From positions 1 through 21,787 of IMG/VR virus record IMGVR_UViG_3300017753_000132: DNA of 21,787 bases. One strand, 5' to 3'. The number at the start of each line of letters is the position of its first letter. The first letter of the stretch is position 1. Below are positions 1,773 to 21,741 of this stretch, piece after piece. The notes beneath the pieces were generated by a model, which saw nothing but the letters and a program-made list of their open reading frames with translations, had not been told where the DNA came from and did no database searches. The DNA is from a virus. The position numbers were made by a program, and so were the translations under genes.

Positions 1773-3623
1773 TTAGTAGTCCCAACGAACAATAAAGTTC
1801 ATATCTACATCATCTCGTTTTTGAATTGCTTGAGACGGTTTACCAATTGCCAATAACTGAGCATCATCGTTATATAAACCAATGGTAGTAATATACGGTA
1901 ACGCAGTACCAGATAAAAACATATGTTTACGATATTCACCTGGCAATAGATTACGTTGAAATGGTTTACATCCAACCGTACCTTGATTAGTAGGTTTAAA
2001 TGTCGCTGTTGGATTCATTGATACATTCATTTGATCTTTAGGTACACGTACTAGTACCTCATTCTCATAAATTGTATGAGTACCTTTATATGATAATTGA
2101 AAATTATTACCAAATGCACCAGATGCAGTATTATACTTCATCATTGGTGATGAAACAACCATTTCTCCATTACGATAAAATACGTTACCGGCCACATTTG
2201 TTTGAAACAATGAACCAGATAGATAATGATTATTAGCTAATGATTCAACTGTTGAATCAGATACCGCATAATCATACATACGTATTTCTGCTATATGATT
2301 TCCAGAAACAGTGACTCCATTTTCAAAACTTCCGGATATAAACGATCCAATGATAATATCATCTATATTCGCAGTACTTTCAGGTGGTATTGAACCCGAT
2401 GTTCCAGATTTATCACCGTTAATAAATATTTGACATAATGAAGCTGAATTTCGTACAGCAACATGTACCCAACGAGCATCTGTGCTAGCAATTCTTTTAT
2501 TATCATCAAAACTACTTGATATATGCAATGCATGTGTTCCATCACAGGCACGAAAATGATATGAACCAGATGCTTCAGTTGTACTAGTACCTTTACCTAT
2601 TTGACCGATAACAAATGGAGTACGTACATTTCGAAATGCCGAAGCAGTTATATTTGGCATGGTTCGAACATTGTCACGTACTTTTGTAACACTATTTCTG
2701 CGATCGAAAACCGTTTCTTTACGTATTCCACATTTTGATATAAGCTCATGATTTTTACCCCAACTATTTTTATGCCAAAATGATATTGTCCAATCATCAC
2801 ATTTTCCAAAATTATTAAATTTTTCATTATGAGGTATTCGTATACGAGATTTTGATTGATTACTACCCATATTAAATGCGTAACCACTATGCTGATGTGT
2901 TCCAGCTTGTATCGGATCGTCAATACCGGACATGACAATACCGTCTTTCAAAACATATTGAGATGAAAACGGAACAACTCTACTATTAAATTGAGTAATT
3001 ATTTCATATTCTTGTTCAACTGGTCCATGATTTTTAAAATCTTTATTAAATGATAAATGAAAAAAGCACCGGCTAGAAGTTGCCATACTTGAAGTTAAAA
3101 TTAAAGGATCTCGTAAATTGCCATGTCCATCATCTTGTAATGTATATTGCCAATTATCGTTAATAAATGTACCAGTCATGGAACCAGCTTTAATTCGTTC
3201 ACCAACATCAAAATATGGAAGTGTTAATGTAGAAGCTGATATATATAAATCTTTATATGTAACAGATCGATTAGTTAATTCAGCAGATCTACCTGGATTA
3301 TAAGGATGTGCATAATATCGGTGATCTAAACTACACCAGATTAAATGTGGATATGATTGATCGCTTGAATTCAATAACGGATTATATGCGGAAAAATCTC
3401 CTATATGAAAATTACTCCAACCAATACCAGGTCGTAACGGCCCCGGTCCTGTATCACCCGGGGTTCCTCTAGTTGTACGATAAAAAGCTTCACGCGCAAT
3501 ATAACCTGATGCAGTAGTTTCAGTATTAGACGAGCTTATATAATAATTCTTAAATGCTTTAAATGAGCGTCGCTGAAAATCATTGGATCGAATAGGTCGA
3601 AAAACTGTTGGAATAATTGGCAT
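1773..3623 (-). CDS. Virion structural protein with LamG-like domain, probable fibre or outer-baseplate component
   Basis: A 616-residue protein rich in Ser, Gly, Thr and Asn, typical of phage fibre-type proteins. About residues 262-470 look like a LamG/concanavalin-type jelly roll: it opens near KFNNFGKCDDWTISFWHKN and closes around HIAEIRMYDYAVSDSTVESL. Such domains often bind glycans. A short Gly/Pro patch (GTPGDTGPGPLRPG, about 53-66) lies in the N-terminal region. The last 39 residues (578-616, starting ITTIGLYND and ending VRWDY) match the C-terminus of the neighbouring 485-residue protein. It starts 17 bases after that gene's stop without a recognisable Shine-Dalgarno. I infer a role in host binding or fibre/baseplate assembly from position and domain; no receptor or enzyme activity can be assigned. 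Confidence 0.75.
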   Translation of the reverse strand: MPIIPTVFRPIRSNDFQRRSFKAFKNYYISSSNTETTASGYIAREAFYRTTRGTPGDTGPGPLRPGIGWSNFHIGDFSAYNPLLNSSDQSYPHLIWCSLDHRYYAHPYNPGRSAELTNRSVTYKDLYISASTLTLPYFDVGERIKAGSMTGTFINDNWQYTLQDDGHGNLRDPLILTSSMATSSRCFFHLSFNKDFKNHGPVEQEYEIITQFNSRVVPFSSQYVLKDGIVMSGIDDPIQAGTHQHSGYAFNMGSNQSKSRIRIPHNEKFNNFGKCDDWTISFWHKNSWGKNHELISKCGIRKETVFDRRNSVTKVRDNVRTMPNITASAFRNVRTPFVIGQIGKGTSTTEASGSYHFRACDGTHALHISSSFDDNKRIASTDARWVHVAVRNSASLCQIFINGDKSGTSGSIPPESTANIDDIIIGSFISGSFENGVTVSGNHIAEIRMYDYAVSDSTVESLANNHYLSGSLFQTNVAGNVFYRNGEMVVSSPMMKYNTASGAFGNNFQLSYKGTHTIYENEVLVRVPKDQMNVSMNPTATFKPTNQGTVGCKPFQRNLLPGEYRKHMFLSGTALPYITTIGLYNDDAQLLAIGKPSQAIQKRDDVDMNFIVRWDY

Positions 3624-3640
3624 ATCATATCAATTTAATT

Positions 3641-5098
3641 TTAAAAATCTAATTTCACTTTAATCAATGCTTCTCGAGTAAAGTTTTTCAATAACGGTTG
3701 ACTTAGTTTTGCAGTTGCTAACAACTCTCTACGATTATTATACATTCCTACTGTTGTTATAAATGTTTGAGGATCATTTTTAAATGAATTAAATGTTAAT
3801 TGTCCTAATGACCCTGTCACATATGATGGATTATTTGAATAATTATAATCTGCATTTTTAGCTCTAACAAAATAATATGTAGATTTAACTTGCTCTGAAG
3901 AACGAGCTTGCAGACCACCATTTCTACCGGTTGGTGTTCTAGCATCAGAAGCTGATATAGATGTAAACAACTTCAAAGCATTATCGCCTTGAACTTGAGA
4001 TCCTGTCACACTTTCTAAGTTAACTCCGCCAGCAGCAATATTTGCATCTAATTTTGCTGCATCTAAAACTACAACACCATGTTGCGGATATATTAATCCA
4101 TAAACTAATGGATCAGATGGATTATGAATATGAGTTCCTCCATCTAACGTTCCAGATACTATATTATAAACTTGTCCAGATTCACCTAACGTTGCAGCAT
4201 TAACTGATGAATCATCAATATATTGTCGATAATGGGTCGTATTATTCCATTTTACAGCAGAACCTGTATGATCATTTACACCTGACAAACCACCCGCTAA
4301 TTCTACCAATGTTATTTCCAAATTACCTGGATCTACTTTTTCTCGGAATCTAGCTCGATTAAAAGTTATAAAATAACACGATTCTTTATCATCACCATCC
4401 ATGGTAAATTTCTTATCATTTGGTTCTAACAATGTTTGTGCAAATTGTTTATAAATTGCTCGAGATGGCGTATCATCATTTAAATTACCACCAGTTGGAT
4501 CAACAGACCCAGATCCAGCAAAATGTCCATATGCTATAGAAAATTCTGGGTTCGCGTTTGCTTCAGTAGCTGGATCACCAGTACTAAAAATTTCTCGATA
4601 ATATGCATTTTGTATTGCAGTTTGATTACTAGATGTATACATTAACGTTAAACTACCAGTATTACCAAAAAATAATCCACGCGTCACTGTTTCAACATTA
4701 TTTGCTAATATATCATCTACCTGATCAAATCTAGTAAATACTCTACCTCGACGAGTACGTTGAGTTTGCACAGATTGTTCACGAACAATTTCTTCTGCTA
4801 TTATTTCCGCTTGCTGTTGAATTACAACTTTATCTATCTGAGTAGTTTCTCTAACCGGTACAACAACTTCTTGTTCAAAAACCTGTTTTGTAATAGGATC
4901 TACAACATCTACTTTAACCGTTTCTGTGGGTCTGATCGGCGATGTTGCTGGAGTTGTCAATTTTACATCTGGAATTACTGGAGCGACTGATCTGACCGGT
5001 TCTGAGGCTGGCGCTAATGATCTAGTATCTCTTACCGGTAAGAATTTATCAAATCCGTTTGACTTTGGTCTACCACCTCCATAATTAAAACTTGCCAT
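3641..5098 (-). CDS. Virion structural protein sharing a C-terminal module with the downstream LamG protein
   Basis: A 485-residue protein. Residues about 20-115 are low-complexity and probably disordered or coiled (repeated Pro-Val-Thr, then a Gln/Glu-rich stretch around IQQQAEIIAEEIV). From about residue 120 it becomes compact, with many Gly-Ser turns and short beta segments, as in phage fibre or baseplate proteins. The last 39 residues (447-485, from ITTVGMYNN to VKLDF) align without gaps to the last 39 of the 616-residue protein. About 15 positions are identical, including G-x-YN, LLA, K-x-SQ and the final D-aromatic pair. The gene has a good AAAAGGAT Shine-Dalgarno, 15 bases after the stop of the 219-residue protein. 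I do not recognise a named T4 counterpart; virion location is inferred from sequence style and neighbours. Confidence 0.7.
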   Translation of the reverse strand: MASFNYGGGRPKSNGFDKFLPVRDTRSLAPASEPVRSVAPVIPDVKLTTPATSPIRPTETVKVDVVDPITKQVFEQEVVVPVRETTQIDKVVIQQQAEIIAEEIVREQSVQTQRTRRGRVFTRFDQVDDILANNVETVTRGLFFGNTGSLTLMYTSSNQTAIQNAYYREIFSTGDPATEANANPEFSIAYGHFAGSGSVDPTGGNLNDDTPSRAIYKQFAQTLLEPNDKKFTMDGDDKESCYFITFNRARFREKVDPGNLEITLVELAGGLSGVNDHTGSAVKWNNTTHYRQYIDDSSVNAATLGESGQVYNIVSGTLDGGTHIHNPSDPLVYGLIYPQHGVVVLDAAKLDANIAAGGVNLESVTGSQVQGDNALKLFTSISASDARTPTGRNGGLQARSSEQVKSTYYFVRAKNADYNYSNNPSYVTGSLGQLTFNSFKNDPQTFITTVGMYNNRRELLATAKLSQPLLKNFTREALIKVKLDF

Positions 5099-5813: not shown

Positions 5814-8800
5814 TTATTGAACACGAATAGTTCCTGCTTCATTCTCCGGAGGATCTTCGTTATAAAACAATTGATTTGGATTAACTTGAAACACTTCTAC
5901 TACTGCTTTAAATTCTAATGCTGGTATATTTGATGCCTGATTAGCTTGTCCTTGGTATGTAAGTAAATTACCAGGCGATGTATTTTTACAACCATCATAT
6001 CTTAAATTATGAGTCATTATAAATTCGTCATCCATATAACAACCAATAGAAAGACTACTAGTAGCATAATATCCAAGATGTTTAGGCGATGTCACTCCTA
6101 TTGATCTACTCGCCGGAGTAGTAAATATAAAGTCTCTTGTTTTATAAAAACTACTAGATCGGCAGTTCATTGCAAATCCTTCATTTACCGAACCAGTCAT
6201 ACTACCAGTCTGTACAACTTGAATTTGACCACATGGGTTACCAACATCAGTAGGACCATTTGATCCAATATGATATACTGTTTCTGCAGAAATTAATTCT
6301 TGCATTTCTATACTTGCAGTATAACATTGATATACACCACTACCTGATGGCTCTTTATTAATAACTCCTTCATATTGTGGATTAGTAAATGTTGGACGTT
6401 TTGTTAATGGTACTTTTGCTCTTTCTAATACATGAGGCTCAACTAACAATCCCATAGCTTCATCGACACGTTCTGGTAAAACCTGTTTTATCTGATTAAA
6501 TAATGCAAAATCAAATTGACTAAATATTCTCATATAAGCATTTATGTCATTTCGATCTGTATATTTTTTCCAATATTCTTTTGCAAAGAAATCTAAATCT
6601 GGATATCTAGGCTCAAATTCATCATCTGGATCTCCTACAAAATCATCTAATTCAACGTCACCAATATGATTAAAAATTTCTTTATTAACCTGATCAGCCA
6701 TTGAATAAAATAATCCTAATCGATTTGTATCAATTGGAGCACGATCAAATCTAGACTTTTCCGCAGTATTTGTAGGAGATAAATTTCTGACTAATTCATT
6801 ATCTTCTATTCGTATTTTTTGAGATCTAGGAAGATTACCTCCTAAAGAAACTCCTTGCACATAATATGTTTCAACCAATGTTTCATAATTACCGCGTTCC
6901 AAATTATCTGGTACTGGAAAATTAGACATTGATGCGTATGTACTGGCAGATGCTATTAATCCTACATCTCCATCCGGATGAATAGTATTTTGAAAATCAA
7001 AAAGACGGAATGGATGAGATGATGTTATAATACGATAAGCTGCATCATGATGATTTACTGCATTTAAATCCGTACCCAATGGATAATGTCTTACCAATGT
7101 ATCATATGAACCAGTTGGAGATAGTCCAGATACGTATGATGTAGGATTTTTAGTATGCAAGTCAAACGTTGTTTGTCCGATATCTTCGAGATATTCACGA
7201 TACTCTTGCATCGATCCTGAAAATGTCATTATATCACTATTTGCGGTTGTACTGGTTCCAGTAGTATTATCAAAGAAATGATTTAAATAATTAGTAACTC
7301 TATATTGATCATTATTAGTAATAGCTGCATCGCCTGGATAACCTCCTAGAGATGACTTACCTCTCTTATATGTTCCGGGGGTCAGCTCATCAGTACTAGG
7401 AAATTGCCAAGCTTTATAATGTTCAGTATATGATGCGGTATATGAAGCTGATGCTCGGTGTATAATTTTATCGTTAATATAATCTGATGATTTTTGTACC
7501 TGTAAATGGTATGTCGTGCTTAAATTGTCTTGATTATTATATGTTAATATACCAGATCCAGTAGATTGCCAAAACCATCTCACGTTCCAAAAATCGCCAT
7601 CATATAACGGTAACCAATCTGTAGATGCTGTTACTGGCTTTTGGGTGTCGAGTCCATATCCATGAGAAACTACTAATCTACCATATTTACCAGATCCAGA
7701 ATATGATCCAGTATGTTGTATAGCAATATGAGCCAGTATTCGAGGATCGCCGTTGTTAAGAAGAAATTTATTTGTAAACATCAACATGCTTTCTGTAACC
7801 GCGGGTTTAAATCTCCATTCTCTGGTTTGGCATGGTACACTTCCGGAGATACCATCTTTAGGAATACCCCAGTTATTAAAAGATGCTGTATAAAATTCAT
7901 TACCAAATGTAACAGTAGGTGATTTAGTACCGGTCGATCCACTTTCAAATTGTAAAGCATATGTGAATCGATCTTCAATTAATAACGGAGACTCACCAGA
8001 TACTTTTGGACCTCCATATTCGCGTATAGAAAGCAAAGTCTGCGGAATACCATATGTATTCATTAATGCTTTGATAGACCTTGCAGTCCCTTTAGTTTTA
8101 AGTAAATACGGTAAATTATTAACAATACGTTGCCATACTTCAGAAGTTATTGCTTCATCTGATTTAGAAAATAACGAACCAGTCTGCATATATGCTCCAG
8201 ATCCAGAATTTACTCCTAATTTGTATTGAGATAATGCAGTTGCTTGTTTTCCGTTAGTTAAAGTCCAACCTAATGACTTTGCAATTTGATATAATGTTTC
8301 TTTACTTTGTCCTAATTCCGGATGTTCTTGCACATGATATACTTTTGATAAATTATCCACATACGAATAAATTATATCATAATGATGTGCAATCATATTA
8401 ACAAATAATTCATATTGAGAATTATTTTCATCACGTCGTATATGTTCCGGAATTGTTTTTACTAAAGCTGATTCATTTTCTACATCATATAATGATGCTG
8501 TAGCTAATGTATTTGTAAACCATGTTTGTGCAAGACTTGATGTAGTATGATGTAATCTATAACTTCCATTTTCTAGATATTTTGGCCAAGCTTGTACCCG
8601 ATATAGCTGAGCACCTAAACGATCTCCTTCGACTTCATATATTTCATCTTCATAAAGCTCATGATGAGTAAATAAACTTGAAGTTGAATGATTATATAAC
8701 CACCGCTCAAATCCATCAAATTGACCTATAACTTCATTTTTTCTATTAGTATTAATAGTAACATTATTTTGCAACGCAGTACCGTCAGTTCCATCCGCAT

Positions 8801-9716
8801 CATTTAATATACCAATACGTTGATCATAATATTCAATTAATTGTAGTTTATATTTAAAATTTGCTACACGCTCAGCCGCGGACGAAAAATGTATAAAATT
8901 ATCAAATCCTGAATAATCGATTCCAACACCTACGCCATCCAAGGATCCAGAAAATATACGATCCACAATATCTTGAGACGTTGCGGTATTTGCATCTAAT
9001 AAAGAGTTCCATGATTTAAATTCAGTTTCAGTTATAGTACCAAATTGAGTTTCAACATCAAAATTAGGACCTCGTAATTCAATTATATTATCTACAACTC
9101 TAATATTATTTTTTATTGATATAATATCCGCAACTGAATCAGCAACTTCATCTATAATCCATCCACGTGTGCGCTCTGTAATTCTTGGTGGTAAAGGGTC
9201 ATATAATTTTACTGCCAAACGAATTGTAATATCACTAAATGAAGATGCGCCAGTAAGATCGGGTAATAAATTAGCATTGACAATTCTATATATTTCATTG
9301 TTTCCAAAATTTACTGCTGGTTCAGCTATATTAGGTAAAAGTTTTGCAAATGTTAAAAATCTATCACGAGCCTTTTCCGGAGAAATGTTTTCTATATTAT
9401 ATTCAAGTAATAATTCACGCCTATCCGGAGAAATTTCTTTTAAGAAAATAGAAGGATTTGTTTGAGTCCCAAAAATTGGATCGTATAAGTTAACGACAGT
9501 ATTAAATGTTCCACTAGTAATATCAGCTTCCTTTAAAACACTTGCCCAATCTACATAAATACAATCAGTGTCTATTACATAAAACTTATCCGATAATTCA
9601 CCACCAGTAATATATGTACTATCGGGACCTGGACTATATAAATGAGCTTCTACCCATCCATTTTTAAGTAATACCGGGCCAATACTTTTTACTATATTTC
9701 TTTCTTTTCTTGCCAT
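5814..9716 (-). CDS. Giant baseplate/tail protein at the gp7 position, with LamG-like segment
   Basis: At 1300 residues this is the largest protein in the window. It follows gp25, gp6 and two smaller proteins, where T4 has the gp7-gp10 wedge genes, so a wedge or wedge-to-fibre connector role is likely. About residues 530-560 hold NNLPYLLKTKGTARSIKALM followed by NTYGIPQTLL, a KTKG-x-YGIP motif that I recognise from large tail proteins of T4-like and other phages. Just before it is a helical stretch (VNMIAHHYDIIYSYVDNLSK). Residues about 600-770 look LamG-like (TREWRFKPAV ... GRLVVSHGYG ... DGDFWNVRWFW). The C-terminal third carries several Cys residues and Gly-Ser-rich beta segments. It has a strong AAAGGAT Shine-Dalgarno 10 bases after the proline-rich gene. 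Assignment to gp7 itself is by position only. Confidence 0.7.
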   Translation of the reverse strand: MARKERNIVKSIGPVLLKNGWVEAHLYSPGPDSTYITGGELSDKFYVIDTDCIYVDWASVLKEADITSGTFNTVVNLYDPIFGTQTNPSIFLKEISPDRRELLLEYNIENISPEKARDRFLTFAKLLPNIAEPAVNFGNNEIYRIVNANLLPDLTGASSFSDITIRLAVKLYDPLPPRITERTRGWIIDEVADSVADIISIKNNIRVVDNIIELRGPNFDVETQFGTITETEFKSWNSLLDANTATSQDIVDRIFSGSLDGVGVGIDYSGFDNFIHFSSAAERVANFKYKLQLIEYYDQRIGILNDADGTDGTALQNNVTINTNRKNEVIGQFDGFERWLYNHSTSSLFTHHELYEDEIYEVEGDRLGAQLYRVQAWPKYLENGSYRLHHTTSSLAQTWFTNTLATASLYDVENESALVKTIPEHIRRDENNSQYELFVNMIAHHYDIIYSYVDNLSKVYHVQEHPELGQSKETLYQIAKSLGWTLTNGKQATALSQYKLGVNSGSGAYMQTGSLFSKSDEAITSEVWQRIVNNLPYLLKTKGTARSIKALMNTYGIPQTLLSIREYGGPKVSGESPLLIEDRFTYALQFESGSTGTKSPTVTFGNEFYTASFNNWGIPKDGISGSVPCQTREWRFKPAVTESMLMFTNKFLLNNGDPRILAHIAIQHTGSYSGSGKYGRLVVSHGYGLDTQKPVTASTDWLPLYDGDFWNVRWFWQSTGSGILTYNNQDNLSTTYHLQVQKSSDYINDKIIHRASASYTASYTEHYKAWQFPSTDELTPGTYKRGKSSLGGYPGDAAITNNDQYRVTNYLNHFFDNTTGTSTTANSDIMTFSGSMQEYREYLEDIGQTTFDLHTKNPTSYVSGLSPTGSYDTLVRHYPLGTDLNAVNHHDAAYRIITSSHPFRLFDFQNTIHPDGDVGLIASASTYASMSNFPVPDNLERGNYETLVETYYVQGVSLGGNLPRSQKIRIEDNELVRNLSPTNTAEKSRFDRAPIDTNRLGLFYSMADQVNKEIFNHIGDVELDDFVGDPDDEFEPRYPDLDFFAKEYWKKYTDRNDINAYMRIFSQFDFALFNQIKQVLPERVDEAMGLLVEPHVLERAKVPLTKRPTFTNPQYEGVINKEPSGSGVYQCYTASIEMQELISAETVYHIGSNGPTDVGNPCGQIQVVQTGSMTGSVNEGFAMNCRSSSFYKTRDFIFTTPASRSIGVTSPKHLGYYATSSLSIGCYMDDEFIMTHNLRYDGCKNTSPGNLLTYQGQANQASNIPALEFKAVVEVFQVNPNQLFYNEDPPENEAGTIRVQ

Positions 9717-9726
9717 TCGTTATCCT

Positions 9727-10188
9727 TTACCGCGGTGGTTTATATCCACCGGTAGGCCAATCATCTGGCGGATCGACTTCTATTTCCGGAGCCTCTACTG
9801 GTATATCACGCATTGGTTTTACTCCACCGGTTGGCCAATCCTCTGGTGGCTCTACTTCTATTTCTGGTATTTCTGGTTCAGGCCGCGGAGGCTTTATCCC
9901 GCCAGTTGTAACAGGAGGCGGCGGCGGTGGCGGCGGCGGCGGTGGTGGTGGCGGTACTACCGCTACTGGTACTTCAACTGGTACTGGTACCGGTACTTGT
10001 TGTATTACTACCGGTTTAGAAGGACGCGTTTCAGGCCGCGGTGGTACGAAAAACTCTAATCTTGGATGTATATCACCACCAATATATGTTTGTTCAAATG
10101 GATACTTCGCATATTCCTGCTTATCAATTGTAAATTGGGCAATATTTCTATTATTGCGAGGTACTAATTTAAATTCTCGTTTATTCAT
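9727..10188 (-). CDS. Proline-rich virion-associated protein with polyproline-14 and C-terminal repeats
   Basis: A 153-residue protein. Residues 1-50 look folded (KLVPRNNRNIAQFTIDKQEY). Then come a Pro-Val stretch (PVPVPVEVPVAVV), an unbroken run of 14 prolines (79-92), and a tail with two near-identical 20-residue repeats at 108-127 and 134-153. The repeats share PEIEV, PP, DWPTGG and KP-x-R, with a degenerate third copy at 96-102 (TGGIKPP). It starts in a TAATG overlap with the DNRLRE-like gene and is followed 10 bases later by the 1300-residue gene, so it is co-expressed with baseplate proteins. The layout suggests a rigid spacer with repeated short peptide ligands, but no partner is known. 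The opposite strand is also open here because of the GGN/CCN periodicity; that is a shadow. Confidence 0.75.
   Translation of the reverse strand: MNKREFKLVPRNNRNIAQFTIDKQEYAKYPFEQTYIGGDIHPRLEFFVPPRPETRPSKPVVIQQVPVPVPVEVPVAVVPPPPPPPPPPPPPPVTTGGIKPPRPEPEIPEIEVEPPEDWPTGGVKPMRDIPVEAPEIEVDPPDDWPTGGYKPPR
9913..9954 (-). repeat. CCN codon tract encoding 14 consecutive prolines
   Basis: Fourteen successive proline codons, eight of them CCG, in an otherwise AT-rich genome. The mixed CCG/CCA/CCT codons show that the protein run is kept rather than a simple trinucleotide expansion, although slippage could vary its length. Such runs stall ribosomes and generally need elongation factor P. Confidence 0.9.
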
Positions 10189-11327
10189 TAACTAACCACC
10201 TTAAAATAAAATTCATCAAACATTCGAATATCAGTTGACCGTTCACATTTTAATATTATTTTGTAATAACGTTCCGGCAAAAATGCGTCCATCCTTAAAT
10301 CAAAATAATTACCGGTATCATCACTATTAATTTTTGTACGAGATTTGCCCCAAGATGTATCAAATGGTATTATTGGTTCATTTGTTTCATAATCAAATAT
10401 TCCATATGAACTTGACACCGGTAAAATATCATTTCCTATATAAAATGATGCTGTAGAATATGTACGTGTTGGAAATTCAGATCTTACACCAATTCTAAAT
10501 CTTGCAATTTCAGATGTACGATATTCAGATTTAATGTTTTTAAAATACGGAATAATTAATTCATCAGATATTTCAGATAAACTACCCGTTGTATGATCAT
10601 CCCATGCTACCTCTAATTTTGGAACAAATATTGTATGAGACTCTCTACCAAAGAATTTAATAGAACCAGCTAAATCACCAGAAATTTCATCCGTTTCCGA
10701 ACGTTTAATAATGAAACCATTATTATCAATATCTTCATCTACCCAATGTTTAACAATATCTGTAACATTCATTCGAATATCCGGAATTTGATTTTGAAAT
10801 GATTGAGATGATTCATAAGTAGAACCAGTTATCCATGCACCGCCACCAAGCTGTCGAGTTACTCCTGATGAATTTCCTTTACTATGAGCAGATCCACTAT
10901 TCCAATATGTTGCTAAATCTTTTGAATCTCTAAAATACCATGACGCGCCTATAGAACTTTGTGGTATATCATGTGCATATCCTTGACCATTATTCCATGA
11001 TTCTGATACTGGAAATGCTTTTAATGTATATTGTTGTAACAGATCAGTTGCATCTGATGATCTTAATGTTAAAAATACCGATGCCGATGGGTATAAGTTT
11101 CCAATTGGAGGTATAGTACCATCAGTAATCGCATTTTTTAATACAGTTAATTCAGAACCAAAGTCTAATAGTATTCTAGTATTAAATGTTTCTCCACGTA
11201 TTATACCTTCTACACGTGAACCAGATACATTTTTTGTTAATTCTAATATCTGATCAATACCAGAATTTAATTCTGGAAATCTTTCATATAATGTTGTATC
11301 TCTTTCTGCATAAAATATTCTATACAT
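10188..11327 (-). CDS. DNRLRE-like virion protein next to baseplate wedge genes
   Basis: A 379-residue protein. Residues about 80-240 look like a DNRLRE-type beta-sandwich: VFLTLRS (84-90), the ESWNNG turn (109-114), MNVTDIVKHWVD (186-197), NNGFIIKRS (202-210), FFGRES (225-230) and VPKLEVAWDD (235-244). In that family these form a conserved jelly roll often found in surface-exposed or adhesive proteins. The rest is beta-rich and ends YFKVVS. It starts 8 bases after gp6 with an AAGGA Shine-Dalgarno, and its stop overlaps the proline-rich gene by one base. By position it replaces gp7 or gp8 of T4, but I see no direct resemblance to either. A peripheral baseplate role is inferred. Confidence 0.65.
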   Translation of the reverse strand: MYRIFYAERDTTLYERFPELNSGIDQILELTKNVSGSRVEGIIRGETFNTRILLDFGSELTVLKNAITDGTIPPIGNLYPSASVFLTLRSSDATDLLQQYTLKAFPVSESWNNGQGYAHDIPQSSIGASWYFRDSKDLATYWNSGSAHSKGNSSGVTRQLGGGAWITGSTYESSQSFQNQIPDIRMNVTDIVKHWVDEDIDNNGFIIKRSETDEISGDLAGSIKFFGRESHTIFVPKLEVAWDDHTTGSLSEISDELIIPYFKNIKSEYRTSEIARFRIGVRSEFPTRTYSTASFYIGNDILPVSSSYGIFDYETNEPIIPFDTSWGKSRTKINSDDTGNYFDLRMDAFLPERYYKIILKCERSTDIRMFDEFYFKVVS

Positions 11328-11335
11328 TTATTTCC

Positions 11336-13189
11336 TTATGGTTTTACAATTCGTGCTTTAATATCATTATCCGGATATTTAATTTCAAATATACTAGGAT
11401 CTAATGACGGATATAAAATATTATTTTTAATAGCCGCATCTACAGCGTATTTATTATTAGAATAAGTACCACCCGATTTACAATAAAACTTAAAGTTAAT
11501 TATACTTTGTACACCTTCCACTAAATCTAAAGCATTAACTAAAGATGATATATTGATAGGACCATTTATTTGCATTTTATCATTTGACATTATATCTTTT
11601 AACTTTGCAATTGCTCTTATTAAAACTTCATTACTATTAAAATTTGGCCTAGGTATAATATCAAAATCTACTCCTAAATTAATTATAAACGCTGATTTTA
11701 TGTTAATAGCATCTGTTAACATACGATACTGAGATATATAAGTTCTTATATTCTCTTTAAGAGCTTGGTTACATTCTGTAAATTGTTCATTTTCATCATA
11801 TGCTAATAAATACATGTTTAATGCGTACGGATTATCAATGGTATCGCGAGGATATACCATATCAGATGTATTAATTTGAGTATCTCCTATAATATAAGCC
11901 TTTGCAACAGATCCAAATTTTGATGGCATGGCATATACACGAGCAATGTAATCTTCACGAGTAATTGCTCTATTCTGTGCTGCAAACGTGGCCATGGCAT
12001 TTTGTCGTATACTTTCAATGTCTTGCTTAGCTCTACCTCCAAGTGCTGGTTCTGAATTTGTAACAGCTACAGATGCTTTAGAATCTGTTAAATCAACTCC
12101 TGTAACTTCGTTAAGATATGTAACATTTCCAACAGTAGCTATAGTATTTACTCCTACATTTTCTGTTACAGATCCACCTACAGTATATCGTATTGTTAAA
12201 TCTGTATTAGAAGGAGCTAAACCATAAGTACTAGTATATAAAAAGTTTGAAGGATCAATTGTATCTGTAGTTGTACGCCTTAAATATTCTAATCCTAAAC
12301 CTACGTTTTTAGGATTCGGAATAATTTCTTCATCAGCATCAGATGATATACCCGAACCAAATTGTATTTCTAATCGATTATCATCACGTAATCTAGTAAC
12401 AAATCGTCTAGGTGTTTTACGTAATTTTAATATATAAGGTACGGTAGATCGATATATGGAAAGTTCTGGATCATTATATGCTATATTTGCTATATCTTCA
12501 AAGACAGTATCTTGCGCTAAATAATCAACTTCATTCCATGTATTATCTGCACTATCTTTAACACTTATTACGTTAATAATATTTGTTTCTGGTAACACTA
12601 TTTTATCATATGGTTTTGGATCATTAAATGTAAATGTTAATTCTTTTATTTCACCAGATTCTACAGTAACTTCTTTCTTAAGTAAATAACGAGCAACTTC
12701 TCCGCCACCGTCAATTTCATATACAGAGATATCTGGATCATCATTAAATTCCACCGGTTCTAATGTTCTAAACTTGATTCCGGAGTCGCTTAACACTTCC
12801 ATGTTTGATGCAATAGATAATGCATATTCCATATCTGGAGCAGCATTTTCTCCACTACCAGAGGCAATAACTAATTGAAAAACATCTAATTTACATCGCG
12901 CTGGCGAATTTAATTTTGGTTTGAATCCAAATAATTGTGACAATGCTAATATATTAGACGATTCATCAGCCGAATTTAATAAACTTTCACGAAATGATGT
13001 ATCAGCATAATACGATAAAACATCGCCTACATATGATGCCATTTCTACAAACATCATTCCCGGAGATGATTCATTAAAATCTTGATATGTATCTGGAAAG
13101 TAATTTTTTGCAAAGTTTATTAAATTTTGTCTAAACTGGGCAAAATCTTTGTTTAAATATTTAACATCTTTTTTAATTAAATTGCTCAT
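11336..13189 (-). CDS. 6: Baseplate wedge protein gp6-like (baseplate J family)
   Basis: A 617-residue protein, near the length of T4 gp6 (about 660). The N-terminal block is typical: FPDTYQDFNESSPGMMFVEM (31-50), then ASYVGDVLSYYADTSFRESL (51-70), and LALSQLFGFKPK. The later block AITREDYIARVYAMPSKFGS (near residue 410) is the core of the baseplate-J / gp6 fold. In T4, gp6 dimers join the wedges into a ring around the hub and trigger sheath contraction. The gene follows gp25 by 13 bases with an AGAGG Shine-Dalgarno; gp25 and gp6 contact each other in the wedge core, so the pairing supports both calls. Confidence 0.92.
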   Translation of the reverse strand: MSNLIKKDVKYLNKDFAQFRQNLINFAKNYFPDTYQDFNESSPGMMFVEMASYVGDVLSYYADTSFRESLLNSADESSNILALSQLFGFKPKLNSPARCKLDVFQLVIASGSGENAAPDMEYALSIASNMEVLSDSGIKFRTLEPVEFNDDPDISVYEIDGGGEVARYLLKKEVTVESGEIKELTFTFNDPKPYDKIVLPETNIINVISVKDSADNTWNEVDYLAQDTVFEDIANIAYNDPELSIYRSTVPYILKLRKTPRRFVTRLRDDNRLEIQFGSGISSDADEEIIPNPKNVGLGLEYLRRTTTDTIDPSNFLYTSTYGLAPSNTDLTIRYTVGGSVTENVGVNTIATVGNVTYLNEVTGVDLTDSKASVAVTNSEPALGGRAKQDIESIRQNAMATFAAQNRAITREDYIARVYAMPSKFGSVAKAYIIGDTQINTSDMVYPRDTIDNPYALNMYLLAYDENEQFTECNQALKENIRTYISQYRMLTDAINIKSAFIINLGVDFDIIPRPNFNSNEVLIRAIAKLKDIMSNDKMQINGPINISSLVNALDLVEGVQSIINFKFYCKSGGTYSNNKYAVDAAIKNNILYPSLDPSIFEIKYPDNDIKARIVKP

Positions 13190-13202
13190 AGCTGCCTCTT
13201 AC

Positions 13203-13742
13203 TTACAATAATCCATCTGTTGATATAGGTTGTAATTCTAAATCCGGTGTTGCATCACTTACCACTAATGAATTTTCGGATGCCAATACGTTAATTACTA
13301 AATTTGCACCTATACTAGTTATTGTAAAATGTATTAATATTGTAATAGTATGCATATCTTCACTTGACGTGATATCAATACCATTTATGATAATATATGG
13401 TAACCAATATTCAATATCTTCTGTTAATGTTTTCTGCAATGATGTTCTTAAATCTAATGTATTATTTTCAAATAACTTATCAAAAATATCAGTACCAAAT
13501 AAAGGTTCCATTACTCGTTCACCTTTACGAGTCAATAACAAATTTTTTAAGTTTGATATAACCTGTTCTTCAGTAGAAAATGATTGACCAAATAATTGTT
13601 TTCCGGAACTACTTCCAGATGCATAATTTAAATTTGGATCAGCTGATCGCGCATTTGCAGAATTATTAAATGGTAATAATATACCAATTGCTTTATCTGG
13701 AGTTTCATTAATAGGTTGATATCGATAAACTGGTCTTGACAT
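13203..13742 (-). CDS. 25: Baseplate wedge protein gp25-like
   Basis: A 179-residue protein; T4 gp25 is about 130, so this one has extensions at both ends. The diagnostic segment is QVISNLKNLLLTRKGERVME (60-79) followed by PLFGTDIFD, the gp25/lysozyme-like fold signature with the conserved kGER-x-m-P-x-FG stretch. Despite the Pfam name it is structural: it joins gp6 in the wedge core and nucleates sheath assembly. It begins in a one-base overlap (TAATG) with the stop of the 143-residue gene, with GGTAAA just before, and is followed by gp6. Confidence 0.92.
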   Translation of the reverse strand: MSRPVYRYQPINETPDKAIGILLPFNNSANARSADPNLNYASGSSSGKQLFGQSFSTEEQVISNLKNLLLTRKGERVMEPLFGTDIFDKLFENNTLDLRTSLQKTLTEDIEYWLPYIIINGIDITSSEDMHTITILIHFTITSIGANLVINVLASENSLVVSDATPDLELQPISTDGLL

Positions 13743-14173
13743 TATTTACCTTTCTTTTTATCAATCGCTTTCATTAGTGCTGAATAATCTTTTGTCATTG
13801 CATTAACTGTGGTAGCCACTTTTTTATTATTCATATTAACTGATTCTCCATTAATACCTGTCATGGGAACAACTGAAGGAGAAGTTTCCATTCCAAAAGC
13901 TTGTGCCATTTCTGATTTGAAATTCATTGTATTCCAATCTGTCATTTCTGCAGAGACTGGAGCGGCTGCTGTTTCATTTAATAAATCATTTAACATTGAA
14001 TTTTTTGTGAATTGTTTTTTAGGACGAGTATTTGCCATTTCATTCATTTGCAATCCATGTGATATAACTTGTTTATGATTTGTCGCGTTTTCTGTTAATA
14101 CATCTCGTACAGCTGTCTGTACTTCTTCACGAATAATCTTACGTAATAATTTTGTAAATGATTTTGAACTCAT
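13742..14173 (-). CDS. Conserved small baseplate-locus protein, unknown function
   Basis: A 143-residue protein. The N-terminus is strongly helical and charged (SKSFTKLLRKIIREEVQTAV then RDVL), followed by a flexible Asn/Met-rich middle and a basic C-terminus ending KAIDKKKGK. I recognise the KLLRKIIREEVQTAVR pattern as recurrent in T4-like marine phages next to gp25/gp5, without a known role. The gene lies between the gp5-like and gp25 genes, is led by the ATATTTAT octamer and an AAAAGGAT Shine-Dalgarno, and overlaps gp25 by one base. A chaperone, hub or minor baseplate role would fit; nothing decides among these. Confidence 0.65.
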   Translation of the reverse strand: MSSKSFTKLLRKIIREEVQTAVRDVLTENATNHKQVISHGLQMNEMANTRPKKQFTKNSMLNDLLNETAAAPVSAEMTDWNTMNFKSEMAQAFGMETSPSVVPMTGINGESVNMNNKKVATTVNAMTKDYSALMKAIDKKKGK

Positions 14174-20524: not shown

Positions 20525-20698
20525 TTAACTTGCGGTCACGCGGTCTGTCACAAACTGTAATTTTTGACGGATATTTCTAAAACGATTTTGTGCTTCTACT
20601 GGATCTATTTTTAATCCACGCTCAATGCTTTGTTGCATGATCATGATCATGTTATCTGCTTCATCTAATCGTCTTAATACATTTTCTCTGTCTTTCAT
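20525..20698 (-). CDS. Small 57-residue helical protein between uvsE and the membrane-protein gene
   Basis: An ATG at 20698 opens a 57-codon frame to a TAA at 20525-20527. It begins MKDRENVLRRLDEADNMIMI and ends FVTDRVTAS. The start overlaps the uvsE stop as ATGA, and an AAAAGG Shine-Dalgarno lies about 9 bases upstream inside uvsE. The stop is two bases before the next start. This spacing and the heptad-like helix (RLDEADNMIMIMQQSI ... RFRNIRQKLQFVTDRV) support a real gene too short for usual length cut-offs. A threefold ATGATC repeat encodes the NMIMIM patch. The sequence suggests a helical hairpin or dimer. I do not know a function. Confidence 0.7.
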   Translation of the reverse strand: MKDRENVLRRLDEADNMIMIMQQSIERGLKIDPVEAQNRFRNIRQKLQFVTDRVTAS

Positions 20699-21741
20699 AG
20701 TAAAACCTTTTTATTATATTGATAAATATCGCGATATCGTAAAACTGCCAATTCTTTGGCTTTAGCTTCTACTACAATATCTAAATCCATATCATAAGTA
20801 CGTATCTCATCTTTGATATAATTGGAATGAGCTTGCATACGTATCTTATCTATGTCATGTTTCATTTTAGCAAACGTTGGCCATTCATGCACTTCATTCA
20901 ATGGAATATTCTGCTTAGCCATTTTAGCTTCGAACTTACGTTGGAACTCATGTCTACGACATTCGCTATAATGAGTGCATTGTCTAACATCATCTGGCCA
21001 TGTACTGGCAGCCATCTGTAACGCTTCATATTCACTGAGGCCGGCCGGATGGAACATATGATGATGATAATCGAATGTAATAGGTATGCCAGTCTCGCGA
21101 TGGAATAAGTCATACAATTGACGCACACTATACATGGAAGGCTTATCATCATTCTCAACAACTAAACGAGCTCTACATGCTTCAGATAATCGATAATAGT
21201 TTTTGATCCATCTGGTTGCAGTAGTCTCATGGTCGCCATAAGCACCGCCAATATGAATATTAATCTTGTTCTCATGAGATGGCGCATAGCCCATAAGGTC
21301 CCATAGCTCGGAATGTCGTTCGAGACCGATAATAGTCTTATCAACAACATGCTCATGCGGGGAGCCTAACACATGAAATGGTCCTGGATGAGTAGTTAGT
21401 CGATGACCATGCTCACGAGCATAGTTACCACATTCTAATAACTTAGCTGCTAACTCATCATACTGAGGAAGCTCATGTAATTCGAATTGATCATGCCATG
21501 GCACTAATTCAGAACCTACACGAAATAATTTGATGTTATGGTCTTCGTTCCATTTCAGATAATGTAACAAGTCAGTAGCGTTTAGTAATGCACGTTCGCC
21601 TAACAATGACAAGTCGCGCGTCGAATACCAGCTAGCCTTTCTAGCCGTACGAGAAGTTGTAACTCTACCACCTAACTTTTTTGGCCTCTCGGTTAACGTC
21701 ATGTTAACGCAGGCATAACCTAGTCTTACGTTTTCATTCAT
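20695..21741 (-). CDS. uvsE: UV-damage endonuclease UvsE/UVDE
   Basis: A 348-residue enzyme of the UVDE TIM-barrel family, which nicks DNA 5' to UV photoproducts and other lesions and so begins alternative excision repair. Recognisable blocks: RLGYACVN (6-13), LHYLKWNEDHNIKLFRVGSE (59-78), LTTHPGPF (115-122, H118), INIHIGGAYGD (160-170, H163), LVVENDD (193-199, E196), TFDYHHH (222-228, D224 and H227) and DIVVEAKAKE (321-330, E325). These give the expected metal-binding His/Asp/Glu set. It lacks a Shine-Dalgarno; a TTTG-N20-TATATTTA element ends four bases before the ATG. Two 60-base lines inside it count 52% and 47% G+C, against 27-32% in lines counted elsewhere, suggesting recent acquisition. 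Its stop overlaps the 57-residue gene. Confidence 0.93.
   Translation of the reverse strand: MNENVRLGYACVNMTLTERPKKLGGRVTTSRTARKASWYSTRDLSLLGERALLNATDLLHYLKWNEDHNIKLFRVGSELVPWHDQFELHELPQYDELAAKLLECGNYAREHGHRLTTHPGPFHVLGSPHEHVVDKTIIGLERHSELWDLMGYAPSHENKINIHIGGAYGDHETTATRWIKNYYRLSEACRARLVVENDDKPSMYSVRQLYDLFHRETGIPITFDYHHHMFHPAGLSEYEALQMAASTWPDDVRQCTHYSECRRHEFQRKFEAKMAKQNIPLNEVHEWPTFAKMKHDIDKIRMQAHSNYIKDEIRTYDMDLDIVVEAKAKELAVLRYRDIYQYNKKVLL

Follow-up and report, generated by a model that had tools for sequence, protein, structure and literature searches.

Why should two neighbouring genes of a viral tail cluster, encoding proteins that otherwise look unlike each other, end in the same short sequence? 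This question is raised by the IMG/VR virus record IMGVR_UViG_3300017753_000132, a stretch of 21,787 bases (hereafter the window; possibly a fragment) with a tail gene cluster on its minus strand, whose recognisable members encode gp25-like and gp6-like baseplate wedge proteins. In the direction of transcription, the gp6-like gene is followed by open reading frames (ORFs) of 379, 153, 1300, 219, 485 and 616 residues; the last two, P0002 (485 residues) and P0001 (616 residues), share a module formed by their 39 C-terminal residues. We propose that both proteins are adaptors of the baseplate periphery that fix receptor-binding parts, with a C-terminal dock and a variable cargo, and we give this reading a probability of about 0.62.

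The shared module and the two families that carry it

The tails of P0001 and P0002 align without gaps over 39 residues with 15 identities (BLOSUM62 sum of 65), in agreement with the original observation of about 15, and both ORFs are found at the positions given in Table 1. This pair has the top score among all pairs of 39-residue windows between the two proteins, 20,000 shufflings of one of the tails scored no higher than 19, and BLASTP recovered the match with an E value of 3e-4 in a set of five proteins of the window. Neither complete protein had a PHROG match at E 0.05. Relatives were collected from IMG/VR, where a search with the alignment of the module yielded 80 loci that were retained, from phage records and, later, from further loci; at least 584 IMG/VR stretches encode the module (584 of 600 among the matches listed).

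The first set of 88 loci (the window and 87 others) has 165 ORFs that match the module at E under 1e-3, none of them more than once. The module ends the ORF exactly in 117 of these and one residue further in 22 more (139/165 within one residue), and in 164 of the 165 it lies within 11 residues of the C-terminal end, the exception being an ORF of locus L073 in which 43 residues follow it. The C-terminal place of the module is thus supported, and so is its location in a cluster with baseplate genes, the gp25- and gp6-like ORFs. The AlphaFold2 models of P0001 and P0002 show the module as three predicted β strands, two of them short in the 616-residue protein; the order of the strands is the same in both models, and hence this comparison gives no indication of unrelated folds. 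In Escherichia phage Kapi1, the consensus of the module had a match among early genes (E 0.4), which was taken as chance.

When the last 45 residues are excluded, the bodies of the module ORFs form two families, c0 with 89 members including P0002, and c1 with 75 members including P0001; one of the 165 ORFs was too short to be placed. The family profiles align over 91 columns at the C-terminal end (P0002 393-484 with P0001 507-615, E 6e-19). After removal of the last 42 residues, 59 columns of the N-terminal halves still align (P0002 208-266 with P0001 88-155, E 5.6e-7), with a score of 59.6, whereas none of 56 valid column-permuted controls exceeded 18.7; after removal of the last 110 residues the match persists with an E value of 1.1e-5 and a score of 47.9, versus at most 15.9 in 51 valid controls. 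A weak further match of only 14 columns was seen between the extreme N-terminal ends (match probability 14, score 17.0 versus at most 9.5 in 58 valid controls and at most 11.6 in another set). The two models contain matching secondary-structure elements in the same order, and differ in the extra jelly roll of P0001 at about residues 177-474. From these results, c0 and c1 are ancient full-length tandem paralogs, and their shared end stems from a common gene origin. The earlier remark that there is no obvious similarity outside the module holds for this pair of sequences; at the profile level it does not, as about 50 residues before the module and the N-terminal half also align. Likewise, the module is not a free tag of 39 residues, but the most conserved edge of a domain of approximately 100 residues within full-length paralogs.

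A different origin for the shared end had also been considered, in which recombination would have moved the module as a cassette from one neighbouring gene to another. The five consecutive module genes of phage Mel-JY01 and the very different lengths of the bodies would suit such an exchange; nevertheless, when identical modules are set aside, each of the 164 modules has its closest counterpart in the same family, an argument against exchange between neighbouring genes. The modules of c0 and c1 from the same genome are no more similar than permuted pairs (identity 0.426 versus a mean of 0.431 in 72 loci), and the bodies are homologous as well. Swapping is therefore considered very improbable, although single events may have occurred, and the duplication that gave rise to c0 and c1 is old and vertically inherited; what stands of the initial proposal on the history of the module is that it was kept while the bodies diverged.

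The P2 gpH collar and the docking proposal

The collar domain of gpH from phage P2 (PF12571; PHROGs 1162 and 1780) joins the fibre to the baseplate. It contains a hairpin, REIGLYDD..G.LIAVAN, that is similar to the ITTVGLYND..ELLAVAK motif of the module. The C-terminal domains of both families combined (259 rows) matched 11 collars of the P2 gpH type with a probability of 89.5 and an E value of 2e-6; the 36 aligned columns contain the conserved hairpin, and the score of 43.3 compares with maxima of 17.3 and 20.5 in two sets of 60 column-permuted controls. The match was also obtained with c0 alone (33.7 versus 19.8 for the null) and with c1 alone (42.6 versus 19.3), the families taken singly having match probabilities of only 30 and 69. 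The matches of single modules to tail-fibre and tail-collar families were weak, 9 of 15 reaching phrog_1162 (best E 0.0018). In addition, the N-terminal end of the P0003 family resembles the N-terminal half of the gpH domain (match probability 66, score 37.4 versus null maxima of 21.9 and 19.1); when 38 P0003-type proteins were compared with PHROGs and Pfam no clear match was obtained, a single one reaching phrog_1780 (tail collar) with an E value of 0.0046. The resemblance of the module to the collar hairpin supports a docking role, and a dock to the baseplate, as originally suggested, is the reading of the module that we favour.

The lineage in which this would operate has a T4-type baseplate gene cluster, and RM378, immuto and Mel-JY01 are its members in culture. 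The docking core of each adaptor would be formed by its N part together with the C-terminal domain of about 100 residues, and the shared 39 residues would be the three predicted strands that close this domain, in a manner similar to the P2-type collar hairpin. In the virion, both proteins would be located at the periphery of the baseplate, where the module would meet its binding partner. The cargo, for example the LamG jelly roll of the 616-residue protein, would sit before the core or inside it; in one sublineage it would follow the N part, and the C-terminal domain would be supplied by a gene of its own.

In the 616-residue protein, the insert matches PF13385 with an E value of 7.9e-6 and 26.5 bits, just below the gathering cutoff of 27.6, and VIA structural comparison assigns it a jelly-roll fold, with Z values of 17.3-19.7 among the matches listed. 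The c1 family profile also matched an S-layer domain protein (E 1.5e-13). The likeness to LamG or concanavalin-A-like jelly rolls concerns the fold of the insert only. Many of the LamG-like chains listed are receptor-binding domains of clostridial neurotoxins, which we take to reflect a common fold that has often been solved there and not a sign of a toxin; the inserts are presumed to be receptor-binding. The model of the 485-residue protein matched LamG-named viral proteins in BFVD with E values of 1.2e-8 and 4.4e-5 and low TM-scores (0.30 or less); these may be members of c1.

Several observations weigh against the proposed docking function. The similarity to gpH is limited to 22-36 columns; only 3 of 15 single modules matched PF12571 (best E 0.015), and the complete 485- and 616-residue proteins had no match to this family at E 0.1. 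The hairpin of gpH is part of an N-terminal domain of the fibre, whereas the module is C-terminal, and the other half of the collar domain was not found in c0 or c1. P0004, a candidate for the wedge partner, was tried as a relative of P2 gpI and scored 18.3, below null maxima of 24.1 and 22.7 (four gpI sequences), and the gp8 profile mentioned below showed no similarity to either family. Finally, the place of the adaptors at the baseplate periphery is inferred from sequences and models.

T4 gp8, the wedge protein that comes after gp7, is a dimer, and c0 and c1 could be its local counterparts, with the duplicated pair occupying the place of the gp8 dimer as a heterodimer. In the VIA comparison of the 485-residue model, gp8 (1n7z) ranked first of 998 chains (Z 4.6, 79 residues, root-mean-square deviation 3.1), in an alignment that ends at the C terminus on both sides, and the gp8 homologue of KP1 (9f4a_A4) ranked third (Z 3.5); the gp6-like gene belongs to the same cluster, and in 121 of 122 loci the c0 and c1 genes are adjacent. 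However, a Z value below 8 may reflect only a common arrangement, ranks 2 to 5 are tied and include unrelated chains, and a Foldseek search of the PDB with the 485-residue model found no chain at E 0.001. A gp8 profile of seven sequences showed no similarity to c0 (E 0.21) or c1 (E 0.72). While gp8 remains the best, albeit weak, fold match of the 485-residue protein and shares with it the setting of a baseplate gene cluster, here there are two paralogs with large cargo inserts and a conserved 39-residue tail. An equivalence with gp8 thus appears unlikely. Less likely still, in our opinion, is a reading in which the C-terminal segment would not dock to the baseplate but act as an assembly signal, for chaperone binding, oligomerisation or processing; its near-constant C-terminal place and the existence of a standalone form of about 100 residues would agree with this role, but the hairpin resembles the gpH collar domain, and an autonomous domain of this size would not obviously be needed for a signal.

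Among other candidates, single sequences of T4 gp5 to gp12, wac and P2 gpI were compared with c0, c1, P0003, P0004 and P0005, and the one conspicuous result was the similarity of gpH to c0 and c1; it was followed by P0004 with gp10 (E 0.009, match probability 4.5) and c1 with gp10 (E 0.045). Matches of the c0 profile to PDB sequences looked like chance (caspase-3 and one kinase, E 0.063 and worse), and no solved relative of P2 gpH was found by sequence at E 0.01.

Split c1 genes

In two loci of the first set, an ORF of about 100 residues with the module was found some 8 kb downstream. This ORF corresponds to the C-terminal domain of c1, open from its own ATG, and the N part of c1 remains behind c0. 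A second scan, seeded with these two loci, found more; among the 144 loci examined in all, c1 is fused in 90 and present as two separate ORFs in 27 (Table 1), a proportion that, owing to the seeding, is not a frequency (2/88 in the first set). In 15 other loci the C part occurs without the N part, 10 have the N part only, and two have neither. The 15 comprise 13 standalone ORFs, L116 with its two long ORFs, and L142, and nine or more of the 10 loci with only an N part may be cut by contig ends. Near-identical viruses are present among the 27 split loci, with identical C domains in L155/L156 and in L157/L158. In L116, a contig binned with a Methylococcaceae genome, two consecutive ORFs of 555 and 1277 residues (8615-14113) end in C domains of the c0/c1 type, and their bodies are without match to the N-part profiles of c0 or c1 at E 1e-3.

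In all, 40 closed standalone ORFs for the C domain were detected, of 101-137 residues from stop to stop, 27 of them with the N part upstream; the two halves are separated by 817-7,408 bases that contain one to seven ORFs. These genes indicate that the C-terminal stretch of about 100 residues is an autonomous unit. A poorly resolved tree built from 105 columns of 128 C domains needs five changes between split and fused forms, and only one of them is forced by well-supported branches. A core similar to a Shine-Dalgarno sequence was present upstream of the first ATG in none of the 40 standalone ORFs, versus 8.9% of 2,172 sampled ATGs. The sequence upstream of these ORFs looks AT-rich, as is expected for Bacteroidota hosts.

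The N parts of split c1 proteins often have mucin-like tails rich in Thr, Pro, Ala and Ser. A 60-residue window with at least 80% of these residues occurs in 12 of the 27 split N parts and in none of the 90 fused c1 proteins. Five glycosyltransferase or FkbM proteins taken from two of the split loci were used to search for homologues, which are encoded between the two halves of c1 in 10 of the 27 split loci, versus 0 of the 90 fused loci (48 with at least 3 kb downstream). The fibre of the split form is possibly glycosylated by the phage. Regarding the fold, the VIA alignments of the 485-residue model in the first four rows (T4 gp8 and others) begin at residue 120 or 121 and end at 485, although they comprise only 67-79 aligned residues; this suggests that in this model an early strand and the C-terminal strands form one sandwich; if c1 were built in the same way, its splitting would amount to strand complementation. 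It is tentatively proposed that in this sublineage c1 is a natural split protein, in which a long and often mucin-like fibre belongs to the N part and the dock is made separately, both halves would reassemble noncovalently on the baseplate by strand complementation, and the fibre and glycosyltransferase genes between them would be freely exchangeable; we see this as a possibility with the odds somewhat against it. With its natural split, this adaptor lends itself to tests of the modular attachment of fibres.

Gene order, occurrence and other features of the window

Gene order was counted in the 144 loci, leaving out 19 without a complete c0. A P0003-type gene ends at most 200 bases before c0 in all 105 cases in which c0 has at least 900 bases upstream, and a P0004-type gene ends within 2.5 kb before c0 in 55 of the 61 loci with at least 5.5 kb upstream (the exceptions are L006, L063, L065, L072, L087 and L112). 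On the other side, in 121 of 122 loci no more than 150 bases separate c0 from the start of c1 or its N part, the remaining gap being 2,240 bases. The arrangement that defines the family, i.e., a C-terminal domain ending in the module, a P0003-type gene before c0 and c1 after c0, was therefore found.

Table 1. Positions of the tail genes and domains in the window, and loci with a split c1
Feature	Position	Strand	Remarks
c1-family protein P0001, 616 aa	1773..3623	-	family of 75 ORFs; model pLDDT 80.8
c1 39-residue module, residues 578-616	1776..1892	-	model strands 581-584, 590-594, 608-615
c1 C-terminal domain, residues 507-616	1776..2105	-	encoded apart from the N part in 27 related loci
c1 insert, LamG / concanavalin-A-like jelly roll, about residues 177-474	2202..3095	-	PF13385 and VIA
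c1 N-terminal part, residues 1-175	3099..3623	-	aligns with c0 208-266; weakly with c0 119-132
c0-family protein P0002, 485 aa	3641..5098	-	family of 89 ORFs; model pLDDT 78.6
c0 39-residue module, residues 447-485	3644..3760	-	model strands 444-453, 459-472, 477-484
c0 C-terminal domain, residues 393-485	3644..3922	-	91 columns aligned with c1
P0003, 219 aa	5114..5773	-	family directly precedes c0; N end resembles N half of P2 gpH collar
P0004, 1300 aa, usual upstream neighbour	5814..9716	-	55/61 testable loci
gp6-like baseplate wedge protein	11336..13189	-	phrog_219 E 5.9e-24
gp25-like baseplate wedge protein	13203..13742	-	PF04965 E 1.2e-13
Split c1 loci (27)			L062, L076, L118-L120, L123, L124, L126-L128, L133, L134, L136, L141, L143, L145-L147, L152-L159, L161

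Members of the same families with the same C-terminal module are present in the cultured phages RM378 (Rm378p128), immuto 2-6A (gp106 and gp105, of the c0 and c1 families, respectively) and Mel-JY01 (five genes), all of them annotated as hypothetical; immuto is a Flavobacterium phage. The copy number is one in the stretch of RM378 that was read, two in immuto and in the window, and five in a row in Mel-JY01, where four of the copies are of the c0 type and two of the paralogs have approximately 600 and 400 residues ahead of the core. In RM378 (L006), two P0003-type genes flank c0, at 20571-21290 and 22535-23170. A first scan of genomes with a 79-residue query found no relative; a second scan with the c0 alignment as query retrieved eight contigs, and 3 of 8 genome-bin matches were Flavobacteriales.

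In the portions of the literature available on Mel-JY01, immuto, RM378, Far-T4, tail collars, split fibre genes and phage glycosylation, PMC4360716 among them, no description of the c0 and c1 families was found; the adaptor family and its split form appear to be new, and the adaptor principle was already known. The module is common in viral metagenomes, yet the tail genes are unnamed, and recognition of a single duplicated adaptor family should help in annotating the tail cluster, in predicting the sites of receptor-binding parts and in testing their exchange among phages.

Two minor features of the window were also noted. Residues 1-85 of the 485-residue protein have mostly pLDDT values under 50 and are missing in shorter members of the family, for example in the c0 of L062 with its 332 residues; among c1 proteins, that of L053 is short as well, with 340 residues. 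Between the 379- and 1300-residue genes, the 153-residue ORF (9727-10188) is proline-rich and contains 14 consecutive prolines as well as PPEDWPTGG-type repeats.

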